From Rugosibacter sp. (GTDB lineage Bacteria > Pseudomonadota > Gammaproteobacteria > Burkholderiales > Rhodocyclaceae): 9,986 bases of DNA. Positions 3,883 through 9,986 of the stretch are shown here, piece after piece. The notes under the pieces are model-generated. The model did no database searches, was not told the DNA's origin, and saw only the letters and a program-made list of their open reading frames with translations. The stretch is taken from the NCBI GenBank assembly GCA_023257495.1, contig JALRCC010000073.1:1-9986 (forward strand), read 5' to 3'. The position numbers were made by a program, and so were the translations under genes. Each line of letters opens with the position of its first letter. The first letter of the stretch is position 1.

Positions 3883-4722
3883 ATGACTATCGGCAGCCCA
3901 TTGCGTTGCGGACGATTTTTTCTGGATACGCAACGTCCGCGCATCATGGGGATTGTTAACCTGACCGATGATTCATTTTCTGGCGATGGCTGGCAAGGTC
4001 GTGCGGATGCTGCTATTGCGCATGGTTTGCAGCTTGTGGCTGAGGGCGCACATATTCTTGACCTGGGTGCCGAGTCCTCGCGCCCTGGTGCGCAGCCAGT
4101 ATCCGTGCAGCAGGAAATTGATCGACTGCTGCCTGTGCTTGAGGGTTTGGCTGAGTGTGGCGTGCCGCTTTCAGTTGATACGATCAAGCTCGATGTCATG
4201 CGTGCAGCGCTTGCTGCCGGTGCCGACATGATTAATGATATCAATGCGCTGCGTGCGCCAGGTGCGCCTGAGTTGCTGGCGAAAAGTAATGCGGGCATTT
4301 GTCTCATGCACATGCAAGGCGCACCACAAAACATGCAACAGAATCCTCAATACACCCAAGTGGTAGGCGATGTCGCGGCTTTTCTCGCTGCGCGTGTCGC
4401 TGCGGCGCAGCACGCAGGTATTGCGCTTGATCGTCTATGTATTGACCCGGGATTTGGTTTTGGTAAAACGCCAGAGCATAATCTGCAATTGTTACGCCAT
4501 CTGGAAATGTTCTCCGCGATCGGGCTGCCGGTTTTGGTTGGCTTGTCGCGTAAATCAGTGCTAGGGGCTTTAACTGGCCGTGCGCCGGGTGAGCGTGTAT
4601 TTGCCGGCGTTGCGGCGCATATGCTGGCGATGGCACAAGGCGCACGCATTTTGCGGGTACATGACGTAGCTGCCACACGGGATGCGGTGGCGATATTTGA
4701 AGCGGTGGAGAGTGTGCAATGA
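3883..4722 (+). CDS. folP: Dihydropteroate synthase FolP
   Basis: Condenses 6-hydroxymethyl-7,8-dihydropterin diphosphate with p-aminobenzoate in folate synthesis, and is the sulfonamide target. This 279-residue cytosolic TIM-barrel protein has the expected motifs: I-M-G-I-V-N (N26) near the start, E-S-S-R-P-G (64-69), D-P-G-F-G-F-G-K (188-195), S-R-K-S (222-225) and R-V-H-D-V (258-262). Motif 1 is unusual: after N-L-T it reads D-D-S-F-S-G-D-G, where the common form is P-D-S-F-S-D-G-G. The loop 2 Thr is Ser (S66). The start is uncertain: an in-frame stop at 3868-3870 limits it to GTG 3874 or ATG 3883, and neither has a Shine-Dalgarno. I chose the ATG. It follows ftsH by about 130 bp across a terminator-like hairpin and overlaps glmM by 4 bp (ATGA), so the two are translationally coupled. 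The folP-glmM pairing is widespread in proteobacteria. Confidence 0.95.
4707..4712 (+). promoter_or_regulatory. Strong ribosome binding site for glmM inside folP
   Basis: GGAGAG lies six bases before the glmM ATG (4719) and within the end of folP. It decides the glmM start and supports coupled translation across the ATGA overlap. Confidence 0.75.
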
Positions 4723-6092
4723 GTCGAAAGTATTTTGGTACGGATGGTGTTCGTGGGCGTGTAGGGGAAGCACCCATTACGCCGGATTTTGTCATGCGTC
4801 TGGGCTACGCCGCAGGCCTGGTTTTAGCGGCAGGCCAAGACCATGCCGTTGAACACCCCGCCGTACTGATTGGCAAAGACACACGTATTTCTGGCTACAT
4901 GCTGGAAGCAGCCCTGGAAGCCGGCTTTACTGCCGCAGGCGTAGATGTCGTGCTCTGCGGCCCTATTCCAACGCCCGCGGTGGCTTACCTCACGCGCGCC
5001 CTGCGTCTTCAGGCCGGTGTGGTGCTCTCTGCTTCGCATAATCCTTATGAAGATAATGGCATCAAGTTTTTTTCTGCGCAGGGCACCAAGCTTTCTGACG
5101 CCATCGAGCTGGCTATAGAAGCCCAACTTGACCAGCCGATGCAGTGCATGACCTCCCGACGTTTGGGCAGGGCGCGACGTGTGGATGATGCGGCAGGACG
5201 CTATATCGAGTTTTGCAAGAGTACCTTCCCGAATGATCTGGATTTGCACGGCATGAAGATTGTGGTCGATAGCGCACATGGTGCAGCCTATCGTGTTGCG
5301 CCCAAAGTGTTCCACGAACTCGGTGCTGAAATAGTCGGCGTTGGTGATACGCCGAATGGATTCAATATTAATGATGCAGTAGGTGCCACAGCGCCACAAG
5401 CCATGCGTGAAGCTGTGCTGAAATCGAAAGCCGATTGCGGTATTGCGCTGGATGGCGATGGCGACCGATTGGTGATGGTCGATGCCGCTGGTGAGGTTTA
5501 CGATGGTGACCGCCTGCTATATCTCATCGCGCGGCACCGTATGCAGTCTGCACCCGTTGGCGGTATTGGTGGCACCTTGATGAGCAATCTGGGTTTTGAG
5601 CATGCCTTGTCGCGTCTCGGCATTCCGCTTGGCCGTGCCAAGGTGGGCGACCGTTATGTGCTGGAGATGATCCAAGAGCGGGGCTGGCTACTCGGCGGGG
5701 AAAATTCAGGGCACATTATTTGTCTTGACAGGCATAGCACGGGGGATGGCATTGTTGCTGCATTGCAAGTGCTGGCGGCCTTGCGTGCAAGCCAGGAGTC
5801 TTTGAGCGAAGCCTGCGCAGATCTTGTGCTCTATCCGCAAAAACTCATCAACATCCGTTTGTCCCCGGGTTTTGACTGGGCGAATGATCTGAACATCCGC
5901 GCCGCAGTCAAGTCAGCCGAAGCCAGTTTGGCGGGTACCGGTCGTGTCTTGCTGCGGCCCTCGGGGACCGAGCCCCTATTGCGCGTGATGGTTGAGGGTC
6001 GCGATGCGGACGTTGTTGCTGACCAGGCTGAGGCGATTGCTTCCACCATTCGTCGCGCCATGGACCGTGCGACGCTCAACGAACAGGCTTGA
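4719..6092 (+). CDS. glmM: Phosphoglucosamine mutase GlmM
   Basis: Interconverts glucosamine-6-phosphate and glucosamine-1-phosphate, the step feeding UDP-GlcNAc for peptidoglycan and lipid A. The 457-residue protein belongs to the alpha-D-phosphohexomutase family and opens with the GlmM-type [10 protein letters not shown]. The phosphoserine loop S-A-S-H-N-P places the active serine at S106 (E. coli S102). The metal loop D-G-D-G-D-R is at 245-250, the sugar loop G-E-N-S-G-H lies near 330, and the phosphate-binding loop R-P-S-G-T-E-P is at 413-419. All four loops are intact. Length is slightly above the 445 residues of E. coli. The start is fixed by the GGAGAG site and the 4-bp overlap with folP. 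Its last 117 bp are also coding on the opposite strand for the EAL/GGDEF protein. Confidence 0.97.
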
Positions 6093-7883
6093 GCCGGATA
6101 TTTTTTTCGCTTGATGCTTTGCCTCGGTGACGCCTGCCGCAATTTCATGATGCGAATGGTAGGTTCCGGGGTTGGCTATCAAACAGCCCAGGGAGAGCGA
6201 TGTCAGCGGGGTGAATACGTTTTCGCCGCGCCGGTTTTTTGAAGTGAAGCCTCCCGCGGCATAGTGTTCGTGTTCAACCAGGTGGATGATGCGGCTGTCG
6301 AAAAGCGCCAGCGCCTGCTGGCATCGGGCATGCCAGTCAGCGCTCTGGAACAGCAGCATGAAGTCGTCGCCACCGATATGACCGAGAAAATCTTCACGTC
6401 CATCAATGACTTCCCCCAGGGTTTTTGCCAGCATCAGAATCACGTCATCGCCACGGCGGAAACCATAGAGATCGTTGTAGGGTTTGAAGGCATCCAGATC
6501 GACATAGCAGGCGACAAAGGACGTATTGCTCGCCAGCAGGCGTTCAATATGTTCGTTGATCGGCACATTGCCGGGTAACTGGGTCAATGGGTTGGCGTAG
6601 CGCGCAGCCTTCATCTGCAGGTTGGTGATCATGCTCATCAGTGCGCGGCTGGAACCCATACCAAGATAGCGGCCATCACGGACAATGATGAAATAGTCGA
6701 GGAGATGGTCCTGTTCATCGTTGCTGATCCGCCGCGCGACTTCCTGCACGCTCTCCGTGTGCTCGACGATCAGTATCGCGTCGTTCATCAGCGTATGGCA
6801 GGGTTTCTTGCCATACAGCTCTCGCCGATAGGGACGGGCGAAATGGTCGATGATGGTGTAGCGATTGATCATGCCCAACGGTTTGCCCTCTTTGACGACA
6901 GGCAGCGACAAGAGCCTGGGCTCCCGCTCGAAACGTGCATAGACCTCGTCATTTTCGATGTCTGGCGATATGGGATCCATGGCGCGTAAAAGCTGTCTGA
7001 TGGGGACATAGCCTGCATTATTTGTTTCCTGCTGGGGAAAGACAATGATGCGTGCTCTGGTGCGCAACTGATTGATACAGTCAATCGGCTGGGCGAGCGG
7101 TTCGGCAGATGGACGTGCGATCAGGTAGCCTTGGGCAAAGCGGATGCCCAGGTCGCGGATGGTAGTGAATTCCGCTTCGGTTTCGATGCCTTCGGCAATC
7201 AGTTGGGAGCCACAGGTTTCCGCAATCTGGTGCATCGCGCGTACCAGCTGGAATTTCAATGGATCATCGGCAATGCCGGTGATGAAGTGGCGGTCAATCT
7301 TGACAAAGGCCGGGCGCACCTCGGACCACATGCGCAGGTTGGAGAATCCTTCACCGAGATCATCCATCGCCAGATCAAAACCAAAGCTGCGGTAATCCGC
7401 CAATACGTCGTGGAGGGCTGAAAAATCACTGACCAGATGGTTTTCGGTGATTTCGATAACGACTTGCCCAGGTGTCAGGCCCAGCGCTTGCAGATGGGGC
7501 AGGTCGCCATCCTGGCGGAAATGGACGTCAGTCAGGCAGGGAATGCTGGCATTGATGAACAACTTGCCTGGCAATTTGAGCCGGGCATAGTCCGCCATCA
7601 CGATTTCACGGCACAGGTGTTCAAACTGGCAGGTCATGTTGAGTTGCCTTGCGCAATCAAACAGCGCTTGTGGCGAATGTAGGGACGAACCCTGCGGGCC
7701 GCGAATCAGCCCTTCGAATGCGAAGTATTTGCCGGAATGCATGTCGAGAATGGGTTGGAAAACACCATGCAAGCGCCGCGCGGACACGAGTTCGATAAAT
7801 TCGCTGAGTTGAGTATGCATTGCGGGGGCTACGGAACAAAAACTTACGTCATGATGCTGCAATTCTATGAGTGAGGTTGGCAT
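5976..7883 (-). CDS. c-di-GMP phosphodiesterase-like protein, EAL-CBS-CBS-GGDEF
   Basis: A 635-residue cytosolic protein with no signal peptide or membrane segment. An EAL domain (about 35-260) comes first, with its catalytic set present: E57 (as E-G-L), N111, E144, D174-D175, K195, E231 and Q251. The paired CBS domains (about 292-346 and 360-418) probably bind an adenine nucleotide. A GGDEF domain (about 428-605) follows, with D462, N470-D471 and the signature G-G-D-D-F at 504-508. The fourth signature position is Asp where Glu is usual, and no RxxD product-inhibition site stands at the expected distance, so cyclase activity is doubtful. I infer c-di-GMP hydrolysis tuned by the CBS and GGDEF parts. 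AGGA five bases before ATG 7883 supports this start; Met22 is an alternative without a site. It follows the metallophosphoesterase by 14 bp, so it is likely the third gene of that operon. Residues 598-635 are encoded antisense to glmM. Confidence 0.9.
6084..6107 (+). terminator. Possible weak terminator at the glmM 3' end
   Basis: A short GGC-TTGA-GCC stem-loop spanning the glmM stop codon is followed six bases later by seven T (6101-6107). A stem of only three clear pairs is weak. The site lies inside the convergent EAL/GGDEF gene, so it cannot be a conventional intergenic terminator. Confidence 0.2.
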
Positions 7884-7887
7884 GGAT

Positions 7888-7892
7888 TTCCT
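7888..7892 (-). promoter_or_regulatory. Ribosome binding site of the EAL/GGDEF gene
   Basis: On the minus strand AGGA stands five bases before ATG 7883, inside the 14-bp gap after the metallophosphoesterase stop. It supports translation from a shared transcript and selects the first Met over Met22. Confidence 0.6.
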
Positions 7893-7897
7893 GAAGA

Positions 7898-8695
7898 TTA
7901 TTTGGAAGCAATCGTGACAAGGCCTTCTTTGTCCTCGTCATTTGTGGCAGCAGCCATGGCGGGTTGCCAGTGATGTTTTAACTCCATGCGGCCATCCAGG
8001 TGTTCGATGATGGCGGTGCAGCTATCGACCCAGTCGCCGCAGTTGATGTAGGTCATGCCGTCAACTTCCTTGATGGCGGCACTGTGGATGTGGCCGCAGA
8101 TCACGCCATCCAGGCCGCGGTCGCGTACAGCACGAATGACCGCATCTTCAAAATCGAAAATGAAGGAAACCGCGCGTTTGACGCGGCGTTTGGCATAACC
8201 GGCGAGTGACCAGTAATCGGCAATGCCGAACGTTCGACGCAGCCAGGCAACCCACACATTTGCGCGTACCAGCAGGTTGTAGCCGACGTCACCCAGCACG
8301 GCCAGCCATCGATGATGGCGGGTTACCTGGTCAAATTCATCGCCATGAATCACCAAGTACCGGCGACCGTCAGCAGCAACATGGATATGCTCGTTGGTGA
8401 TCACGATATCGCCGAAGGCAACACTGTGATATTCGCGTAGCGCTTCATCGTGGTTGCCAGGAACCAGCATCACTTTCTCGCCATGACGCGCGCGACGGAG
8501 GATTTTTTGCACCACGGTATTTTGTGCTGGCGTCCAGTGAATGCTGCGCTTCATGGCCCAGAAATCAATGATGTCGCCGACGAGGAATAGTTGGTCCGCT
8601 TCGTGAGTACGCAGAAATTCAAGCAAACGTTCGGCCTGACAACCCCGTGTTCCGAGGTGGATGTCGGAAAGAAAAATGGTGCGAACTTTTGTCAT
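7898..8695 (-). CDS. Metallophosphoesterase, PlcP-like (LpxH-related superfamily)
   Basis: A 265-residue calcineurin-like phosphoesterase with a complete two-metal site: D11 and H13 (S-D-I-H-L-G), D41 (V-G-D-I-I-D-F-W), N81-H82 (P-G-N-H-D-E), H117 (V-I-H-G-D) and H202/H204 (C-G-H-I-H). Automated annotation often names this family UDP-2,3-diacylglucosamine diphosphatase. LpxH of E. coli, however, has GNRD where this protein has GNHD. Other landmarks here (G-T-R-G-C-Q-A near the start, Y-W-S-L, and N-C-G-D-W-V-D-S-C-T-A near the end) are those I associate with PlcP, the phosphate-starvation phospholipase C of Sinorhizobium and marine bacteria, which releases diacylglycerol from phospholipids. 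I chose ATG 8695, which begins one base after the glycosyltransferase stop. A TTG at 8710 would add five residues and overlap that gene. Tight coupling to a GT4 enzyme favours PlcP. A lipid A role remains possible. Confidence 0.82.
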   Translation of the reverse strand: MTKVRTIFLSDIHLGTRGCQAERLLEFLRTHEADQLFLVGDIIDFWAMKRSIHWTPAQNTVVQKILRRARHGEKVMLVPGNHDEALREYHSVAFGDIVITNEHIHVAADGRRYLVIHGDEFDQVTRHHRWLAVLGDVGYNLLVRANVWVAWLRRTFGIADYWSLAGYAKRRVKRAVSFIFDFEDAVIRAVRDRGLDGVICGHIHSAAIKEVDGMTYINCGDWVDSCTAIIEHLDGRMELKHHWQPAMAAATNDEDKEGLVTIASK

Positions 8696-8696
8696 C

Positions 8697-9887
8697 TCAG
8701 TCGGGTGCAAAACGAAAGATCAGGTCGGCGTGTTGTTGTCGCTGGTGTGTTTTGATGGTGGTGTGCAAGATGTCGGCCAGCTGATTGCTGATATGCCCCC
8801 AGTCGAGATGACGCACACTGGTATGGGCACGCTGGCGCAAAGTGGCCAGCATTGCCGGGTTGCGCGCTAGTTCAAGCGCGGCAGCGATGAAGGCATCACT
8901 GTGGTTGCCAGGTACAACGCGGCCATTGTCACCATTGCGTATCAACTCGTTAGCTGCTGCGCAGTCATAGGCAACGACACCCAGGCCGCTCGCGAGTGCT
9001 TCCAGTGTGACGTTGCCGAAGGTTTCGGTTAGGCTGGGGAACAGAAACAGATCGGCGGAGGCGTAATGTGCTGCGAGATCTTCCTCGCGCCGCATACCGG
9101 CAAAAATATAGGTGGCGTCGCTGCGTTGAAGTTGTGTACGTAACGGGCCATCGCCGACGAAAAGCAGGCGCGCATTGGAATGCAACTCGCGGATGGCAGC
9201 AAAGGCTTGTGTTACCAGCAGCAGGTTTTTTTCTGCCGCCAAGCGGCCGACATAGGTGACGACAAGTTGCTCATCGCTAACACCCCACTGCGCGCGTAGC
9301 GCCTTGCTGCGCCGCTGCGGATTGAATAGTGCGATATCTACGCCACGTGATACGACACGCACCGTGCGATAGCCTGCGTCGGTGAGCTCTCGTGCCACGG
9401 CAAAAGTCGGCGCTAGTGTGACGGCGCTTTTGTTATGCAAACGGCGCAAATGCATGGCCACCAAGCCCTCTAACCAGCCAAAACCATAGTGACGGCTGTA
9501 AGCATGAAAATTAGTGTGAAATTCGGAGACTACCGGGATGTCTAGCTCGCGTGCCGCTGCAATGGCCGACGCACCTAGCGGTCCTTCGGTAGCAACCTGA
9601 ATGATATGGGGACGGTCTGCTCGCCAGGCCTTGAGCAGACGGGCTTTGGCGGGAAGGCCAAAACGCAGGCCGCGATACCCGGGGATAGGGCATCCGGCTA
9701 CCAGCACTTCGCGCAGATTGGTTTCGGTAGCAGGCAGGTCATTGGCATGCTGACGTGGGCGTACCAGCGTGAAACGGTGCCCTAGGTGGCGCAGTCCATC
9801 GGTCATACGGCCCAGCGTCATGGCGACGCCATTGATTTCTGGCCGCCAAGTCTCGGTGACCAGCGCGATGTGGAGTGGTATCGTCAT
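8697..9887 (-). CDS. GT4-type glycosyltransferase, probably acting on lipid (Agt/SqdX/MgtA-like)
   Basis: A 396-residue GT-B fold retaining glycosyltransferase. The N-terminal domain opens with I-A-L-V-T-E-T-W and the acceptor-side N-G-V loop (19-21), and contains E-F-H-T-N-F-H. The C-terminal domain has S-R-G-V-D (180-184), the donor-phosphate residues R215 and K220 in G-R-L-A-A-E-K, and the EX7E motif E288-x7-E296 followed by a small-residue loop. No signal peptide or membrane span is seen, so it is probably cytosolic or peripheral at the inner membrane. Relatives include Agt of Agrobacterium (glucosyl/glucuronosyl diacylglycerol), SqdX and mannosyltransferases; donor sugar and acceptor cannot be read from sequence. 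It is first in the minus-strand unit and ends 1 bp before the PlcP-like gene. ATG 9887 lacks a clear Shine-Dalgarno. Candidate PHO-box repeats lie 24-63 bp upstream. An exopolysaccharide or LPS role is the main alternative. Confidence 0.85.
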   Translation of the reverse strand: MTIPLHIALVTETWRPEINGVAMTLGRMTDGLRHLGHRFTLVRPRQHANDLPATETNLREVLVAGCPIPGYRGLRFGLPAKARLLKAWRADRPHIIQVATEGPLGASAIAAARELDIPVVSEFHTNFHAYSRHYGFGWLEGLVAMHLRRLHNKSAVTLAPTFAVARELTDAGYRTVRVVSRGVDIALFNPQRRSKALRAQWGVSDEQLVVTYVGRLAAEKNLLLVTQAFAAIRELHSNARLLFVGDGPLRTQLQRSDATYIFAGMRREEDLAAHYASADLFLFPSLTETFGNVTLEALASGLGVVAYDCAAANELIRNGDNGRVVPGNHSDAFIAAALELARNPAMLATLRQRAHTSVRHLDWGHISNQLADILHTTIKTHQRQQHADLIFRFAPD

Positions 9888-9910
9888 GTTGCGCAGTTTG
9901 CCAATTGCCT

Positions 9911-9950
9911 GTGGCAGATAGATGACGCCAAGGTGACGTTTTTGTTACTC
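9911..9950 (-). promoter_or_regulatory. Candidate tandem PHO box (PhoB sites) upstream of the glycosyltransferase operon
   Basis: Read on the minus strand, four 7-mers begin at 9950, 9939, 9928 and 9917, exactly 11 bp apart: GAGTAAC, ACGTCAC, GCGTCAT and CTGCCAC, with 4-bp linkers AAAA, CTTG and CTAT. A PhoB box is two CTGTCAT/C half-sites separated by four A/T-rich bases. The last pair agrees with the 18-bp consensus at 14 positions by my count. Three of the four half-sites share GT(C/A)A(C/T). No strong -10 hexamer is seen at the expected distance; TATCTG (9920-9915) and CAAACT (9900-9895) are weak options. Confidence 0.5.
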
Positions 9951-9959
9951 GATTTTCTA

Positions 9960-9975
9960 ATTGGTAAGCACCAAT
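9960..9975. repeat. Perfect 6-bp inverted repeat ATTGGT-AAGC-ACCAAT
   Basis: Arms 9960-9965 and 9970-9975 with a four-base loop, in the AT-rich gap right of the glycosyltransferase. No T-run follows on either strand, so it does not read as a terminator. It could be an operator for a gene beyond the right edge, or chance. Confidence 0.3.
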
Positions 9976-9986
9976 AGCCAGATAAT

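Follow-up and report, generated by a model that had tools for sequence, protein, structure and literature searches.

Why should a gene for the turnover of cyclic di-GMP (c-di-GMP) stand at the end of a run of membrane-lipid genes? This question is raised by a 9,986-nt stretch of DNA from Rugosibacter sp. (contig JALRCC010000073.1; hereafter the window), in which three genes lie head-to-tail on the minus strand: GTa (8697..9887), encoding a GT4 glycosyltransferase of 396 aa; plcP (7898..8710), encoding a PlcP-type phosphoesterase of 270 aa if read from TTG; and the EAL gene (5976..7883), encoding an EAL-CBS-CBS-GGDEF protein of 635 aa that belongs to the RapA/PA3258 family. From comparisons of sequences we propose, with a probability of about 75%, that the third gene encodes a RapA-family phosphodiesterase, a member of the Pho regulon, which was recruited to the end of a Pho-controlled lipid-remodelling operon.

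Pho-box-like sites at the head of the run and before EAL genes

Pho-box-like sites were scored as two 7-nt units at an 11-bp pitch against the published consensus CTGTCATNNNNCTGTCAT (PMC8528852); A at place 5 earned half a credit, and C at place 7 earned 0.7. The 69-nt gap between dgkA, encoding diacylglycerol kinase, and GTa holds four Pho-like units on the minus strand at 9911..9950 (GAGTAAC, ACGTCAC, GCGTCAT and CTGCCAC, at the 11-bp pitch). None of 5000 shuffles, and none of the 2804 other 69-nt stretches that the window contains, reached the three- and four-unit scores of this box; its two-unit score was reached by 9/5000 shuffles and 0/2804 other stretches. Its GTCA cores are kept in three related loci or genomes (L001, L002 and G078), where the scores are 11 to 12. 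The box, which is the sole above-chance upstream signal found for the run, stands at the head of GTa-plcP-EAL and not directly before the EAL gene; the 350 bp preceding the latter hold no Pho-like box (best score, 9.7). The sequence-only reading, which had seen in the EAL gene a member of a putative Pho-controlled lipid operon, is supported at its core, and in part strengthened, by the candidate site before GTa and by a gene order that recurs (see below).

Over the family as a whole, upstream regions of EAL genes reached a score of at least 11 in 67 of 150 cases, versus 2.1 expected from shuffles (related and re-fetched loci unmerged), and the control genes folP, ftsH, glmM, pstA, pstB and pstC did so in 0/113 regions. 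The other genes gave 10/39 (GTa), 14/41 (PlcP), 4/22 (olsB), 3/30 (dgkA), 2/32 (GTb), 1/8 (tpiA), 0/7 (PAP2), 0/3 (zinc phospholipase) and 0/2 (olsA). Because the 150 EAL rows are related to one another, a distant set was also analysed, for which one homologue per genome was taken from 369 genomes of the class; 36 of these had a match, and 33 of 35 loci had a usable upstream region. As many as 19 of the 33 regions scored at least 11, versus 0.27 expected; the same score was reached by 14/376 upstream regions of other open reading frames in these loci, and by 1/20 regions of EAL paralogues (one from each of 20 distant-set genomes, taken from the top PF00563 matches). These counts suggest that Pho control may be a common trait of RapA-family proteins across the beta- and gammaproteobacteria.

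The position of the EAL gene appeared to matter. With related loci merged (145 left), a box of its own (score of at least 10.5) was found before none of ten operon-distal EAL genes, i.e., those lying closely downstream of a lipid or pst gene and co-directional with it, versus 88/135 EAL genes elsewhere (Fisher test, 5e-5, kinship uncorrected). The ten cases, which amount to about four events, are the window, L001-L005, G052, G038 (after pstB), G112 (after GTa) and G191 (after PAP2). Boxes were found at most of their operon heads: before GTa in L001-L004 and the window (10.7-12.2) and in G191 (11.7), before plcP in G112 (12.7), and before pstS in G038 (12.5). We read this pattern of scores as a trade, in which the EAL gene may have given up its own box for that of the operon.

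These observations bear on the possibility that, despite its position, the EAL gene is mainly transcribed independently and without phosphate control. It does possess its own ribosome-site-like sequence (AGGAAA, before its ATG, in the plcP-to-EAL gap at 7884..7897), and some of the operon-head boxes score weakly. However, the gap amounts to only 14 bp; a scan limited to promoters of the sigma-70 type found none between plcP and the EAL gene (and two sites in 5800-9986, versus 2.4 by chance); and operon-distal EAL genes are devoid of their own box when most operon heads have one. Such phosphate-independent transcription is highly improbable. The 14-bp spacing and the ribosome site had both been reported in the sequence-only reading, and the coordinates, the Pfam matches and the AGGAAA motif agree with it.

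Gene order in close kin and in distant lineages

That the EAL open reading frame could have arisen by chance was ruled out, because its product is kept in five genomes with 67-86% identity over 94-100% of its residues; the nearest EAL genes (86% and 82% identity) occur in metagenome-assembled genomes of Rugosibacter. A survey of neighbourhoods, such as had been called for in the earlier note, showed that the glycosyltransferase-PlcP-EAL arrangement recurs, in the same GTa-plcP-EAL order, in six further genomes (L001-L005 and G052); L001-L005 and the window form one clade, with a support of 99 (Shimodaira-Hasegawa-like approximate likelihood-ratio test, quick tree).

In the close relative L002/L211, the order is olsB, GTb, dgkA, GTa, plcP and EAL, all co-directional, flanked by a divergent pstSCAB on one side and by a convergent glmM-folP-ftsH on the other. 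The families of olsB (ornithine lipid N-acyltransferase-like), GTb (GT4), dgkA and pst were assigned from homologues in L221. The same six genes occur in L001, L003 and G052, and five cluster genes in L004 and L005, where dgkA was not found by tblastn. The pst genes lie beside the cluster in G002 and, at lower identity, in G052; their place is taken by tpiA in L004 and L005, and tblastn gave no pst match in the DNA available around the cluster in L001 and L003. Since these kin show the six-gene order and the window ends in dgkA codons (9957..9986, minus strand, co-directional with GTa, encoding IIWLLVLTN followed by a stop), the three genes of the window probably make up the distal half of a lipid-remodelling cluster that is longer. 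The three-gene operon proposed from the sequence alone was therefore right as to a co-directional GTa-plcP-EAL order that recurs in L001-L005 and G052, and too short, as close kin have up to six genes.

Because simple longest-reading-frame calls were unreliable in GC-rich DNA, we located neighbouring genes with tblastn, using a set of 17 query proteins and staying within the ends of the contigs. Among 101 genomes of the family, EAL was found in 42 (E-value up to 1e-60), plcP in 66 (cut at 1e-75) and GTa in 68 (E-value up to 1e-60). No more than 10 kb separates the EAL gene from plcP in 11 of the 34 genomes that have both, and from GTa in 13 of the 34 that have both, with about 0.25 expected by random placement in each case (kinship ignored). 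A lipid gene occurs within 10 kb in 28/150 EAL rows, and on the EAL tree this label switches 15 times or more (gains and losses pooled); therefore, the meetings between EAL and lipid genes do not represent one unchanged inheritance.

The arrangements are indeed varied. The EAL gene is co-directional after plcP in the Rugosibacter kin and convergent with plcP in G108 and G053; it lies beside olsB and zinc phospholipase C in G109 and G054, and directly downstream of pstSCAB, co-directional and followed by tpiA, in G038 (L216, 8589-15037). Distant genomes have the orders GTa-PAP2-EAL (L281; G191) and EAL-GTa-PAP2 (L270; G434), L219 has the order plcP-GTb-dgkA-GTa-EAL, and on a Mitsuaria plasmid a distance of 5 kb separates the EAL gene from a plcP-like gene, ppk1 and ppx. 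These arrangements suggest that in several lineages the EAL gene became part of a series of lipid or phosphate-uptake genes. As a separate observation, the strongest control-gene box, CTGTCATCAAACTGTCAC in L280 (10986-12338), stands before an unannotated open reading frame that lies upstream of the EAL gene and is co-directional.

A different history would be that the EAL gene has long stood next to pst-glmM, and that the lipid genes moved in beside the same Pho region without any common function. In keeping with such hitch-hiking, the EAL gene follows pstSCAB-glmM, divergent from glmM and without lipid genes in the available DNA, in Accumulibacter, Propionivibrio soli and G073 (L008, L016, L040 and L180), where it is preceded by the box-like CCGTCATTGTACTGAAAC (L040) or by a near variant; moreover, the genome G078 gave no EAL match. 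Two findings speak against it, namely that the EAL gene meets lipid genes with no glmM seen nearby and in distant lineages (L281, L270, L219), and that stand-alone EAL genes often retain a Pho-like box. We consider hitch-hiking very unlikely.

As to the recruitment of the EAL gene to a Pho-controlled lipid operon, which we prefer, several points weigh against it. First, the weights of the Pho box score were set by us on a published consensus, and the positive control pstS reached 11 in only 3/13 regions, which shows that the score misses sites. Second, the genes neighbouring EAL in the distant loci also exceed the shuffles (14 versus 3.9 expected). Third, a single lineage accounts for seven of the ten operon-distal genes, that of the window among them, and the GTa box is weak in L005 (9.2) and G052 (9.9). 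Fourth, in 114/150 EAL rows the available DNA shows neither a lipid gene nor pst or glmM at a distance of up to 10 kb; the Oxalobacteraceae, whose EAL gene has a box-like motif and for which no lipid or pst neighbour was found, are among these rows. Fifth, the coupling is dispensable: the Rugosibacter-like G078 (L225, 6652-8734), the GTa of which is 90% identical, keeps olsB-GTb-dgkA-GTa-plcP and has no EAL match at an E-value of 1e-60, the place of EAL being taken by open reading frames of 172 and 191 aa that have no NCBIfam match at an E-value of 1e-8.

Two further features of the locus concern its borders. The start of plcP is likelier the ATG at 8695, 1 nt past the GTa stop, than the TTG. 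At the other end, the convergent glmM (4719..6092, plus strand) shares its last 117 bp (5976-6092) with the 3' end of the EAL gene; this overlap spans 114 bp in L001, L002 and L003, and is absent in L004 and L005. The C-terminal tail that it adds to the EAL protein is predicted to be disordered (predicted local distance difference test, pLDDT, of about 30).

The EAL protein and the proposed pathway

The Pfam order of the EAL protein, i.e., EAL, a CBS pair and GGDEF, is that of the RapA/PA3258 family. For comparison, we used a locus present in two Pseudomonas aeruginosa plasmid records after prc, the carboxy-terminal processing peptidase gene; from this context (prc upstream) and from gene numbers we take it to be PA3258. 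The protein encoded there is 39% identical to that of the window over 579 aligned positions (E-value, 2e-141) and likewise has the signature GGDDF, and its region has a three-unit box, GCGTCATAAAACAGTCATGGGACTGTCGT, which is the sole stretch scoring at least 11 in 12.5 kb. PA3258 is described as the putative orthologue of RapA in the available text of PMC9394441. Judged by this alignment, the window protein is a member of the RapA family, via PA3258, and RapA is a homologue, beyond analogy; its mention in the sequence-only reading as a precedent for the principle was sound and too modest.

The EAL domain, the signature of which reads EGL in the window, has all the positions that we take to be catalytic or metal-binding (E57, N111, E144, D174, D175, K195, E231, E234 and Q251), each of them being present in 145-147 of the 151 family members that were aligned after removal of identical proteins and of rows shorter than 480 aa. 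In the GGDEF domain, GGDDF replaces GGDEF/GGEEF and is invariant (151/151), as are D462, F466, K467, N470 and D471, presumably of the GTP- and metal-binding site; D464 occurs in 137/151, and the place of the RxxD arginine is held by Gly in the window protein. A homologue on a plasmid of Marinobacter salarius (L352, 7031-8845) is annotated as two genes, EAL and GGDEF.

The CBS match is significant for the whole protein (E-value, 1.2e-7) and for no single stretch alone (best, 306-348). The structure predicted from 37 sequences has two CBS-like units, at about 295-349 and 362-415 (pLDDT of the block, 72-93; overall predicted template modelling score, 0.47). Taking G-h-h-T/S-x-x-D as the adenosine ribose-binding motif, the corresponding residues are N340/T343 in the first repeat and S411/A414 in the second, where Asp occupies place 414 in 107/151 rows. 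Because the Asp positions are thus missing from both repeats (T343, A414), canonical binding of an adenosine-type ligand by the CBS pair of the window protein is not supported by its residues, and neither is the proposed sensing of adenine nucleotides (AMP/ATP); the pair may bind a ligand in another mode.

Could the protein act as a switch, the GGDDF domain making c-di-GMP and the CBS pair setting the balance, so that starvation would render c-di-GMP metabolite-responsive and not simply lower? The invariance of GGDDF and of the five GTP- and metal-site residues is consistent with it, as are, in the available text of the Salmonella study of PA3258, the residual cyclase effects observed once the EAL domain was disabled. 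The same text reports, on the contrary, that untagged wild-type PA3258 behaves as a net phosphodiesterase; in addition, the fourth signature position is changed from E to D, and the RxxD arginine is missing in the window. We regard such a switch as unlikely. The probable role of the GGDDF domain, as we propose, is to regulate the EAL domain by binding GTP, or else it retains weak cyclase activity.

By combining these elements, we propose that recruitment of the phosphodiesterase would operate as follows. When phosphate is short, phosphorylated PhoB, which is encoded in 7/7 close genomes, would bind to the four-unit box observed before GTa. GTa, plcP and EAL would then be co-transcribed, and read-through from the upstream olsB-GTb-dgkA would probably contribute. 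By homology, PlcP would split phospholipids to yield diacylglycerol, GTa and GTb would glycosylate the latter, and OlsB would start ornithine lipids. Concurrently, the EAL domain, in view of its complete catalytic residues and of the PA3258 data, would hydrolyse c-di-GMP, and the lower c-di-GMP level would lead to detachment or motility, or to control of polysaccharides, by an output other than LapD-LapG. A LapD-LapG output is unlikely because no gene of the LapG family (PF06035) was found in the seven close genomes (0/7, the completeness of which is unstated); flagellin was found in 6/7.

If this is true, leaving the biofilm would be a part of the phosphate-starvation programme, with a bearing on bacteria of soil and wastewater, for instance Accumulibacter, in which pst and glmM are neighbours of the EAL gene; a single command may thus make some bacteria both economize on phosphate and loosen their biofilms. 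A broader proposal, which we find distinctly unlikely, is that phosphate starvation in beta- and gammaproteobacteria relies on one recurring module, in which c-di-GMP removal is coupled to lipid replacement because the two draw on a common sugar-nucleotide pool. Were it correct, the phosphodiesterase would stop c-di-GMP-driven polysaccharide synthesis and direct UDP-sugars to the glycolipids of the neighbouring glycosyltransferases, and selection for this coupling would explain why RapA-family genes are repeatedly met beside glycosyltransferase, PAP2, dgkA, plcP and olsB genes.

Comparison with known systems

A Pho-controlled c-di-GMP phosphodiesterase of the RapA kind has been described from Pseudomonas fluorescens: the available text of PMC3032545 reports expression of RapA in low phosphate, a Pho box on its gene and the depletion of c-di-GMP. 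Deletion of PA3258, which is reported in the available literature to have the EAL-CBS-GGDEF architecture, disrupted biofilm structures (available text of PMC9355167), and earlier work, as quoted in the Salmonella study, had seen no phenotype. PA3258 has its EAL-CBS-GGDEF architecture in common with the window protein, the link to RapA running via the PA3258 alignment, and the PA3258 locus has a Pho-like box as rapA has a Pho box. The window gene differs in two respects. On the P. aeruginosa record, PA3258 comes after prc and plcP is not its neighbour, whereas the EAL gene of the window is the last of a lipid run and has no box of its own; and RapA works through LapD-LapG, whereas the close kin of the window have no LapG match. 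The Bordetella protein DdpB (BB2957) also combines GGDDF with two CBS repeats (PMC12805831); it has ESL where the window protein has EGL, and the available text of that paper reports no activity and states no Pho link for DdpB.

Regarding the lipid genes, plcP of the window, a Pfam calcineurin-like phosphoesterase, shares 52% identity over 237 aa with a P. aeruginosa protein encoded beside a glycosyltransferase (PA3219 by context, not by locus tag). GTa, a Pfam GT4 protein, shares 47% identity over 382 aa with a P. aeruginosa glycosyltransferase encoded beside plcR and phospholipase C (PA0842, the Agt2 locus, again by context and not by locus tag). The PA3219/PA0842 pathway was shown, in the available text of PMC8528852, to make glycolipids in low phosphate. 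Among the open-access titles and openings of abstracts that were listed, we found no description of a plcP or agt operon that includes an EAL or GGDEF gene, which accords with the statement of the sequence-only reading that no such arrangement was known to it, nor of a family-wide Pho box on RapA-type genes; similarly, the available text of PMC8528852 and PMC4796936 on PlcP-Agt remodelling mentions no c-di-GMP gene. Like the PlcP-Agt systems of P. aeruginosa (PA3219-PA3218, PA0842), Phaeobacter and Sinorhizobium, the window has adjacent genes and a Pho-like box; unlike them, its run is joined to dgkA and to a c-di-GMP enzyme, and its kin add a second GT4 glycosyltransferase and olsB.

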